From contig NZ_RJAD01000004.1 of assembly GCF_003999995.1 (NCBI RefSeq), forward strand, positions 186,001 through 250,000: a stretch of 64,000 bases of DNA, read 5' to 3'. Every line of letters starts with the position of its first letter. The stretch's first letter is position 1. Positions 30,313 through 32,424 of the stretch are shown piece by piece. The notes beneath the pieces were generated by a model. The model had not been told where the DNA came from. It was given only the letters and a program-made list of their open reading frames with translations, and did not search any database. Position numbers and translations under genes: made by a program. The stretch is from Microbacterium sulfonylureivorans. GTDB lineage: Bacteria > Actinomycetota > Actinomycetes > Actinomycetales > Microbacteriaceae.

Positions 30313-32424
30313 GTGACCGATCTGGACGACGAAACGAGCCGAGCGCCGACCCGACTCGGCGACGCCGACCTCGTGCTGCGCACGCGATCCGGCGACCGGG
30401 GGGCCTTCGGAGAACTGTGGCGACGCCACTACCGCTCGGGCATCGCCGTCGCCCGCGATGTCTCGCCCGGCACCGACGCAGACGACCTCGTCCAAGAGGC
30501 GTACACGAGGATCTACCAGTCGATCCTCAAAGGCGGCGGTCCCACGGGCTCTTTCCGCGCCTACCTGTTCACGAGCATCCGCAACACCGCGGCCGGCTGG
30601 GGACGCTCCCGTCGTGAGACGGCCATCGATGTGCTCGAGACGATGGAGGATCCCGCCACGACCGAGCAGGCCACCGCCGAATCGCTCGACCGCAGCCTCA
30701 CGCACCAGGCGTTCCGCAGTCTGCCCAGCCGGTGGCAGGAGGTGCTCTGGTACTCGGAGATCGAGGGCATGAAGCCGTCCGAGATCGCGCCGCTGCTCGG
30801 CATGAAGGCGACGGCGGTCGCCCAGCTCACCTTCCGCGCGCGCGAAGGGCTGCGCGAGGCGTGGATCCAGGCGCACCTGCTCTCGGTGGCCGACGGCTCC
30901 GACTGCGCGTGGGCGATCGAGCGTCTCGGGGCCTATGCCCGGAACAACCTCGGCCGCCGAGACCGCGCCCGGCTCGAGGTGCATCTCGCCGGCTGCGCGC
31001 GCTGCGCCATCGTCGCCAGCGAGGCCAGAGAGGTGTCGAGCCGTCTTGCGCTCGTGCTGATCCCCCTCACTGTCGGTGTCGCCGGCGCCGCCGGATACCT
31101 CGCCACGCTGCAGGGCGGCGGTGTGCCGATCGCCGCGATCGCCGCGATGCCGTCGTCGGTCGTGCAGGGTGCGGTGAGCGCCGGAGCGGGCACCGCGGGA
31201 TCGGCGGTCGGGATCGGCGGCACGTCCGCCGGCACGTCGGCACTCGCCGGCGCCGGATCCGCCGCGATCGCGGGCTCAGGGTCGGCGGCGACCGCAGGAG
31301 CAGCCGCGACGGGCACCGCAGCGGCAGCGGCCGGGACCACTGCCGCAGGCGCCGTGGCGACGGCGGCGGCCGCCGCCGTCGCGAGCGGGGGCGTCCTCAG
31401 CGGCGCGGGTGTCGCCGGGCTCGCTGCGGCAGGGCTCATGGTGGCCGGCACGGTCGCCGCTGCCGTCGCCATCCCGACCGCCTCCGCCGACCTGGCCGGT
31501 GCGAGCGAATCGTCCACCCGGATCGTCGCGGAGACCCCCGGACCGATCACGCCGCTCGAGATGGTCGCGGCGGCGACCCTGCCGATTGCGGAGGCGGGCG
31601 GCCCCTCGCCGTCCGACATCCCCGTCCTTCCCGAGCGGTCCGCCACGACCGCGGACTCGGCACGCGCCGAGCAGGGCGGCGGTATCGACGGCGACGAGCC
31701 TGCGGCGGACGCCGGCAACGGGAGCGCGGCCGCCGACAACGGCCAGAATGCCGATTCCGACAACCGGGGCACCGGCACGAACGGCGACCCGACGCCCGGG
31801 AGCACCGGAAGCGGAGTCGCCGCGGGCAACGGCAGCACTGCTCCGGGCAGCACCGGCGCCGCCAACAGCGGCGCCAGCCCCGGTCGCACGAACAGCGGCA
31901 CGTCCGCGGCCGGCAGCACGAACAACGGCACCGCCGCGGCGGGCGCCAACGCCAACGCCAACGCCAACGCCAACGCCAACGGCAACGGCAACGGCAACGG
32001 CAACGGCAACGCCAACGGCACCCCCGGGACGAACAACGGCAACGACGGCACCGGCGCGAACAACGGGACGCCGCAGAGCGGCAACGCGAACAGCGGCAGC
32101 GGCAACAGCAGCGCGGGAGGCAACGGTCCGGCCGTCCCGTCGATCCCCGAGGCTCGCGTCGCGATCGTGTCGGGCACCTCGTCGACGTCGGGTGCGGAGA
32201 CCAGAATCGAGATCACGGTCGGCGGCGCCCCCGGTGCGACGGTGCAGCTCCGCATCCGCGGTGTCGTGCGAGCGACGGCCGCGCTCGACGGGAGCGGCGC
32301 GGCGGTGCTCGTCGTCCAGCCCACCGCCCAGGAGCTCACGACCGACGCCCGCGTCGAGGTCCGCTACGTCGACGGCGCCCGCGCAGGAGCGCCGTCGAGC
32401 GCGCGGTTGAGCGAACTGCTCTGA
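30313..32424 (+). CDS. Membrane-tethered ECF sigma factor fused to an anti-sigma-like zinc domain and Asn/Gly-rich tail
   Basis: 703 residues, GTG start after GGGGAG. In order: sigma region 2 (about 20-95, DADDLVQEAYTRIYQSIL), region 4 (about 139-185, EGMKPSEIAPLLGMKATAV), a zinc-anti-sigma-like domain (about 195-235) with HLAGCARC (H-x3-C-x2-C), a hydrophobic helix (about 240-262), a long Ala/Gly/Ser region with a second hydrophobic stretch near 360-392, an Asn/Gly/Ala/Ser repeat region (about 470-610) and a small C-terminal beta-type domain. It resembles actinobacterial ECF sigmas that carry their anti-sigma domain in cis. Release would need proteolysis or a conformational signal. Target genes unknown. 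Confidence 0.88.
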   Translation: MTDLDDETSRAPTRLGDADLVLRTRSGDRGAFGELWRRHYRSGIAVARDVSPGTDADDLVQEAYTRIYQSILKGGGPTGSFRAYLFTSIRNTAAGWGRSRRETAIDVLETMEDPATTEQATAESLDRSLTHQAFRSLPSRWQEVLWYSEIEGMKPSEIAPLLGMKATAVAQLTFRAREGLREAWIQAHLLSVADGSDCAWAIERLGAYARNNLGRRDRARLEVHLAGCARCAIVASEAREVSSRLALVLIPLTVGVAGAAGYLATLQGGGVPIAAIAAMPSSVVQGAVSAGAGTAGSAVGIGGTSAGTSALAGAGSAAIAGSGSAATAGAAATGTAAAAAGTTAAGAVATAAAAAVASGGVLSGAGVAGLAAAGLMVAGTVAAAVAIPTASADLAGASESSTRIVAETPGPITPLEMVAAATLPIAEAGGPSPSDIPVLPERSATTADSARAEQGGGIDGDEPAADAGNGSAAADNGQNADSDNRGTGTNGDPTPGSTGSGVAAGNGSTAPGSTGAANSGASPGRTNSGTSAAGSTNNGTAAAGANANANANANANGNGNGNGNGNANGTPGTNNGNDGTGANNGTPQSGNANSGSGNSSAGGNGPAVPSIPEARVAIVSGTSSTSGAETRIEITVGGAPGATVQLRIRGVVRATAALDGSGAAVLVVQPTAQELTTDARVEVRYVDGARAGAPSSARLSELL
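31945..32019 (+). repeat. In-frame hexanucleotide repeats coding Ala-Asn and Gly-Asn
   Basis: Six GCCAAC units (31945-31980), five GGCAAC units (31981-32010), then one more GCCAAC, inside the sigma-fusion gene. Six-base slippage would change protein length without frameshift. The pure, uninterrupted repeats indicate recent expansion. Confidence 0.9.

Follow-up and report, generated by a model that had tools for sequence, protein, structure and literature searches.

What does a sigma factor sense, and what does it switch on, when its inhibitor and its membrane anchor are part of the same chain? The question is raised by a gene for a 703-residue protein of Microbacterium sulfonylureivorans, which lies in a 64,000-nucleotide stretch of contig NZ_RJAD01000004.1 (positions 186,001 to 250,000), here called the window and used for all coordinates (Table 1). 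The protein is of a known, little-studied kind, the one-component membrane extracytoplasmic function (ECF) sigma factors with a fused anti-sigma domain (ECF48, ECF52 and ECF53). What is new is an apparent coupling of such a sigma factor to a single promoter-like motif and a single RNA; with it, a sensor so far hypothetical becomes a system whose read-out can be measured.

The explanation that we favor, and that we hold as a whole to be reasonably probable, is an envelope-sensing, tethered ECF sigma factor that is freed by proteolysis and drives both itself and a divergent RNA. The cytoplasmic sigma2/sigma4 pair would be kept inactive by the fused zinc anti-sigma domain, and a membrane helix, most likely residues 366-392, would carry a long flexible linker and an immunoglobulin (Ig)-like domain outside, where that domain may sense a glycan or protein of the cell wall or surface. 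The signal would then, as in the models published for ECF52, cause the sigma factor to be cleaved and set free. Once freed, it would read promoters of the form GCGTnAT-N16-CGTCTC, in many relatives that of its own gene, and also a divergent one for a conserved, structured RNA of about 200 nucleotides with G-rich loops.

Sigma and anti-sigma domains on one chain

The first-pass annotation of this locus had placed sigma regions 2 and 4 and a zinc anti-sigma-like domain bearing the string HLAGCARC on a single chain, and had proposed a domain search as a check. That search agreed on each point. TIGR02937 (sigma70-ECF, NCBIfam) matches residues 31-183 at 3.4e-21 (75.6 bits against a cut-off of 42.9), and Sigma70_r2 (PF04542, 7.5e-8) and Sigma70_r4_2 (PF08281, 3.2e-7) both score over their Pfam cut-offs; with sigma2 and sigma4 domains and the ECF family model over its cut-off, the protein falls among the ECF (group 4) sigma factors. 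The zinc anti-sigma domain is recovered by zf-HC2 (PF13490, Pfam) at residues 198-232 (7e-9, 36.1 bits against a cut-off of 22.2). HLAGCARC corresponds to residues 224-231, and the zinc ligands H224, C228 and C231 are unchanged in 41 of 41 aligned relatives. Among the NCBIfam families listed (25 of 62), the broad ECF model was the only one over its own cut-off, and a PDB sequence search returned sigma factors, with an anti-sigma chain at E 0.36 only.

The AlphaFold model of the N-terminal part reaches a predicted local distance difference test (pLDDT) score of at least 90 for 188 of 400 residues, mainly within residues 17-240, with block means of 93-98 across residues 21-100, and structural comparison of this model lists sigmaE, SigW and further sigma factors. 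The anti-sigma domain runs into the first hydrophobic segment as one long helix (residues 229-267), after which residues 270-400 nearly all have a pLDDT below 50.

Of 7996 candidates scored in a protein search, 1027 were relatives at E ≤ 0.001, and the organism names of the best 120 of these 1027 are nearly all Microbacterium. Across the class, 151 of 394 genomes have a match to a profile built on the sigma/zinc/membrane part (E ≤ 1e-25); within the genus Microbacterium, a sigma match is present in 129 of 198 genomes (E ≤ 1e-90). The M. sulfonylureivorans genome itself holds a paralogue whose N-terminal part is 62% identical, whose linker is Pro/Glu-rich and which ends in the same domain. Two other records bear Microbacterium-like sigma genes, one titled Planococcus (L039, with the same N-acetylglucosamine (nag) gene neighbors) and one named as a Coraliomargarita plasmid (P0047); both are probably mislabelled or contaminated.

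A promoter-like motif accompanies the sigma gene

Regions upstream of the sigma gene share an element that, written toward transcription, reads GCGTnAT-N16-CGTCTC; its second half contains CGTC, a sequence typical of ECF -10 elements. A word pair from this element occurs in 32 of 50 thinned upstream regions and in no more than 6 in 20 resampled sets, in which common descent was not kept. Among the upstream regions of 61 loci and the window, 62 in all, a copy reads toward the sigma gene in 33, away from it in 40 and in both directions in 22. The spacing is nearly constant, with 73 of 74 matches being 29 nucleotides long though 27-32 were permitted, and in 32 loci the distance from the end of the forward copy to the sigma start codon is 35-61 nucleotides (35-39 in 22, 37 in 12). 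The paralogue in the same genome carries a two-mismatch copy ending 44 nucleotides before its start.

Motif and gene also co-occur across genomes. The exact motif was present in 17 of 17 sigma-positive and none of 6 sigma-negative genomes in a set of 23, and, counted by hand over 198 genomes, in 116 of 129 sigma-positive vs 26 of 69 sigma-negative ones (Fisher 1.7e-14, kinship ignored). A reversed-pattern control matched 27 of the 198 genomes, again by hand count. This spacing and co-occurrence suggest that the motif may be read by the sigma factor.

Seven of 17 extra motif sites precede small, membrane or surface-type open reading frames (ORFs) in the same orientation, with starts judged by eye, and two are intergenic without an ORF. 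The seven (L169, L170, L175, L176, L177, L181 and L184) make up a candidate regulon. Named by eye, its ORFs include, in two genomes, a small one that precedes a dipeptide-epimerase-like gene; the others would encode small membrane proteins or proteins of a secreted or surface type.

A predicted structured RNA on the divergent strand

Downstream of the reversed motif, toward nagA and read away from the sigma gene, lies a conserved region of about 200 nucleotides. We aligned 19 copies of one clade, drawn from 45 copies in 39 loci, in place of a broader alignment of 32 diverse sequences that had yielded 12 pairs only. The 19-copy alignment gives 59 predicted pairs with 91.5% of cells paired. Both-sided changes affect 23 pairs (shuffle mean 12.1, reached in 0 of 500; slid controls 3-10) and covariation is 0.264 vs 0.163 (slid versions 0.05-0.09), this alignment also being the source of the structure under test. 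These 19 copies and nine window-clade sequences have the loop CUCGGGGGAGG without change, though not all 32 diverse sequences do.

In 15 of 41 loci outside the training set, some of them close kin, a covariance model of the family found the RNA where it was expected and on the expected strand (E ≤ 0.001), together with some weaker matches on the opposite strand. Searched against whole genomes, it matched 10 of 17 sigma-positive and none of 12 sigma-negative ones; one of the ten matches (G019:C18:7775-7952, 37.9 bits) lies away from the sigma locus. The window's own region folds at a z of -4.95, which none of 200 shuffles equalled. In its core hairpin, GGTGG/CCACC replaces the GGAGG/CCTCC of L043, L054 and L055, a compensatory change.

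Rfam 15, searched over window positions 29500-30700 at E ≤ 1, returned one sub-threshold miRNA model only, inside the sigma gene, and gave no match at the RNA in L186-L188. In the open-access literature searched we found no paper on Microbacterium with an ECF sigma factor and small RNA, and no description of the RNA among the papers surveyed on wider topics. The RNA would form a new family.

The same data bear on an alternative that we regard as unlikely, in which the protein is an ordinary ECF52-like sigma factor, the motif is another regulator's site in the gap between nagA and the sigma gene, and a terminator array or 3' untranslated region accounts for the structure. Its location between the two genes, with a strong hairpin at the end, would suit a terminator or 3' untranslated region, as would a folding energy that is equally good on the nagA strand, but the balance of G-U vs A-C cells (101 vs 27 on the sigma-divergent strand, 63 vs 65 on the other) favors the strand opposite nagA, and the covariation spans several hairpins around an invariant G-rich loop. 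Likewise, the inverted GTCTC...GAGAC arrangement seen by eye within the motif element would be in keeping with another regulator, whereas the fixed motif spacing and the preferred distance to the sigma start codon argue against one.

Several observations weigh against the coupling of sigma factor, motif and RNA that we propose. Neither motif orientation is present in 11 of the 62 upstream regions, the exact motif is missing from 13 of 129 sigma-positive genomes, G019 has its sole exact copy away from the sigma gene, and the window has no forward copy before its sigma gene at up to three mismatches. The reversed-pattern control understates the background, for which the 26 of 69 sigma-negative genomes are a fairer measure. 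Allowing one mismatch gave 21 and 25 matches in two sigma-negative genomes (controls 2 and 6), and for this reason only exact matches were used; the M. sulfonylureivorans genome has 34 one-mismatch matches (control 5). At least 5 of the 17 extra motif sites fall within coding sequence. Nor does the motif stand before the neighboring genes for GH20, nagA, nagB or the ROK kinase, save for one one-mismatch match pointing the opposite way. As for the RNA, folding energy is alike on both strands (mean z -4.4 and -4.9), and the window's copy, a divergent one, is unmatched by the family model at E ≤ 1 in a normal or whole-genome search and scores 10.8 bits with filters off.

Within the favored reading, we advance only tentatively that the divergent structured RNA is the main conserved output, that is, that an envelope sensor is wired to an RNA through one dedicated promoter type with few exact copies elsewhere in many genomes. 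With a compact locus, a short and specific promoter-like motif and a countable RNA, the system would offer a direct read-out of sensor firing, and the G-rich loops of the RNA suggest testable targets.

Three further observations concern the motif and the RNA. The unit that they form is tandemly duplicated between nagA and the sigma gene in L062, L065, L071, L073, L087, L098, L186 and L187. At a second locus with a shared neighborhood in two genomes (L172:2565-2793 and L185:2513-2741), the motif precedes a GC-rich region that no clear ORF directly follows. By eye, this region has a hairpin with compensatory changes and may hold a second RNA, although the family model is unmatched there. The Rfam 6C RNA, considered as a partner that the RNA might sponge, was unmatched in nine of ten genomes and below cut-off in the other, and was rejected.

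Amino-sugar genes around the sigma gene

The sigma gene is tied by position to amino-sugar genes. Window neighbors were searched by tblastn in 61 named-record loci, many of which end at contig ends, giving glyA in 54, nagA in 51, GH20 in 49, DUF2568 in 43, an FAD oxidase in 41, nagB in 39 and ROK in 38. In a second set, nagA lies directly upstream of the sigma gene in 22 of 22 sigma-positive genomes, and GH20 (E < 1e-100) is present in 20 of 22 sigma-positive vs 4 of 13 sigma-negative genomes (Fisher 4e-4, kinship ignored).

Such a neighborhood could be read as a regulon, with the sigma factor directly controlling the surrounding N-acetylglucosamine catabolism genes in response to chitin or peptidoglycan fragments. 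We doubt this about as much as the preceding alternative: the motif is not upstream of the nag genes, nagA (E ≤ 1e-30) is also found in 12 of 13 sigma-negative genomes, and glyA and the sigma gene occur with nagA unmatched in 7 of the 61 loci (L040, L044, L081, L084, L088, L092 and L097) and without GH20 in 9 (L040, L053, L063, L081, L084, L088, L092, L093 and L097). Also counting against it, Ig folds readily yield middling Z scores. The amino-sugar link is one of position and does not imply control of the nag genes by the sigma factor. Upstream of glyA in L186-L188, a ZMP/ZTP riboswitch (RF01750) scores over its gathering score.

Probable membrane anchor and outer domain

For the favored envelope-sensing reading, the orientation of the membrane anchor matters. 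Where the first-pass annotation had a single membrane helix, hydropathy finds two hydrophobic segments, at about residues 245-263 and 369-387, so that the anchor itself is retained and the second segment is its likely place. Both are present in 57 of 57 orthologues and score as possible spans; this comparison, like that of charges, leaves aside proteins of 420 residues or fewer (4 of 23 paralogues, 4 of 61 orthologues). Summed over 19 paralogues, the 15 residues before segment 2 contain 27 K/R and 10 D/E and the 15 after it 5 K/R and 28 D/E, and K/R are more numerous before the segment in 10 paralogues, after it in 3 and equal in 6. By the positive-inside rule of membrane orientation, this bias would have segment 2 run from inside to outside with the tail outside, and segment 1 would then be unlikely to cross the membrane as a span of its own. 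On the other side of the balance, the orthologues' own loop is nearly uncharged and the topology leans on the paralogues; since the window's loop is uncharged, we infer its orientation from kin. Segment 2 (about residues 366-392) is thus the likely anchor, with the tail outside. A two-span hairpin, with both segments crossing and the tail and Ig-like domain cytoplasmic as an internal regulator, would accord with two possible spans in every orthologue compared but is quite improbable in view of the paralogue charge bias around segment 2, the acidic region directly after it and the surface-type domains in relatives' tails.

Beyond the anchor, the Asn/Gly/Ala-rich region and terminal beta-type domain described at first pass were both found again. 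The low-complexity linker includes a 6-bp tandem array of 12.3 copies (31944-32017) and is Asn/Gly/Ala-rich in the window and Pro-rich in several orthologues. In the AlphaFold model the C-terminal domain is a confidently predicted Ig-like sandwich, mostly beta and with a mean pLDDT of 94.5, and among 205 related proteins 113 match a profile built on this domain. The accompanying statement that the outer part was unlike the known sensory domains recognized at first pass has to be given up, both on this model and because relatives bear lectin, carbohydrate-binding module and Ig tails.

No Pfam domain, the ECF52 carbohydrate-binding module included, was found in the window's tail at E ≤ 1. Tail domains score over the Pfam cut-off in 4 of 10 paralogues scanned (Big_6 in L122, L123 and L125; DUF11 in L120), with weaker Ig-like matches in others of the ten, and in 6 of 8 wider relatives (NPCBM in three, DUF642, ricin lectin, and I-set Ig with ricin lectin). 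Among 23 orthologues without a match to the C-terminal domain profile, 7 are truncated at contig ends, 4 do match, but only marginally or at a reduced score (L041, L053, L093 and L096), and in 9 the domain is not matched. In the drafts L071, L075 and L082, it lies in a different frame from the N-terminal part of the ORF; with N runs in the repeat region of two of them, these frame shifts are likely assembly errors.

Relation to known one-component sigma factors

In its account of ECF48, ECF52 and ECF53, PMC8999054 gives these groups a C-terminal zinc-finger fusion, one to two transmembrane helices and an expected proteolytic activation, and names SCO4117 of Streptomyces coelicolor (ECF52) as the best understood among them. 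Because that proposal is published there, the idea of tethered release is not new; for the window protein, which shares the C-terminal zinc-finger fusion with ECF48 and ECF53 and has one or two putative transmembrane helices, activation by release of a tethered sigma factor is made likely by this analogy. The layout given for SCO4117 in PMC5826349 is sigma, zinc finger, transmembrane segment, Pro-rich part and carbohydrate-binding module, and its motif, CSGYN-17bps-SRHA, still termed theoretical there, differs from GCGTnAT-N16-CGTCTC.

With SCO4117 the window protein shares the ECF sigma factor, zf-HC2, a predicted membrane segment, a long low-complexity linker and a C-terminal beta domain, the zinc finger (PF13490) standing C-terminal to sigma as in ECF52. 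Two ECF52 features differ, however: in place of a Pro-rich extension the linker is Asn/Gly-rich, and the tail lacks the carbohydrate-binding domain. For these two reasons we describe the protein, by sequence, as kin of ECF52 and do not file it as a member. Proteins of the ECF52 layout with NPCBM (L230-L232, from genomes of 8.9-9.4 Mb) are 40-42% identical to the window protein over the sigma/zinc part. The carbohydrate module published for SCO4117, smart00776, we take to be NPCBM.

Two further systems are likened by description. Enterobacterial sigmaE, as far as PMC1804206 describes it, is also an ECF sigma factor that drives small RNAs, and IutY (ECF243, Pseudomonas putida) also has a membrane anti-sigma domain fused to sigma, released there by regulated intramembrane proteolysis in the account of PMC8999054. 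IutY differs in serving siderophore signalling. Enterobacterial sigmaE is, to our knowledge, not a one-component membrane protein.

Features of the locus

Table 1. Positions in the window of the sigma gene, its parts, the adjoining motif and predicted RNA, and conserved neighbors.
Feature	Position	Strand	Basis or remark
One-component ECF sigma factor gene, 703 residues, GTG start	30313..32424	+	ORF intact
Sigma region 2, residues 35-99	30415..30609	+	PF04542; AlphaFold; SigE and SigW region 2 matches
Sigma region 4, residues 131-178	30703..30846	+	PF08281; structural comparison
Zinc anti-sigma domain, residues 198-232, HxxxCxxC	30904..31008	+	PF13490 7e-9; invariant H224, C228, C231
Hydrophobic segment 1, residues 245-267, probably not a tail-orienting span	31045..31113	+	Hydropathy; AlphaFold
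Hydrophobic segment 2, about residues 366-392, likely membrane anchor, N-in/C-out	31408..31488	+	Hydropathy; orientation from paralogues
Linker, acidic then Asn/Gly/Ala-rich, including tandem array 31944-32017	31489..32157	+	Sequence
C-terminal Ig-like beta-sandwich domain (modelled), about residues 617-703	32161..32421	+	Profile; AlphaFold
Promoter-like motif GCGTnAT-N16-CGTCTC, reading away from sigma	30097..30125	-	Only exact copy in the genome
Predicted structured RNA	29880..30096	-	Family covariation; weak with family model, 10.8 bits
Predicted RNA core hairpin	29970-30013	-	Predicted fold
Predicted G-rich loop	29985-29995	-	Predicted fold
Predicted terminal hairpin	29880-29918	-	Predicted fold
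GH20 beta-N-acetylhexosaminidase, conserved neighbor	27135..28748	+	PF00728 4.3e-78
nagA, conserved neighbor directly upstream of sigma	28745..29872	+	TIGR00221 6e-74
nagB, conserved neighbor	34927..35709	-	NF001684 1.2e-116
ROK sugar kinase, conserved neighbor	35699..36625	-	PF00480 1.5e-55

About 9 kb from the main gene, at 20184-21634, the window holds a second non-canonical ECF system: a gene with a YCII domain and, after it, a further ECF sigma factor extended by DUF6596, a pair that resembles the ECF42 pairing.
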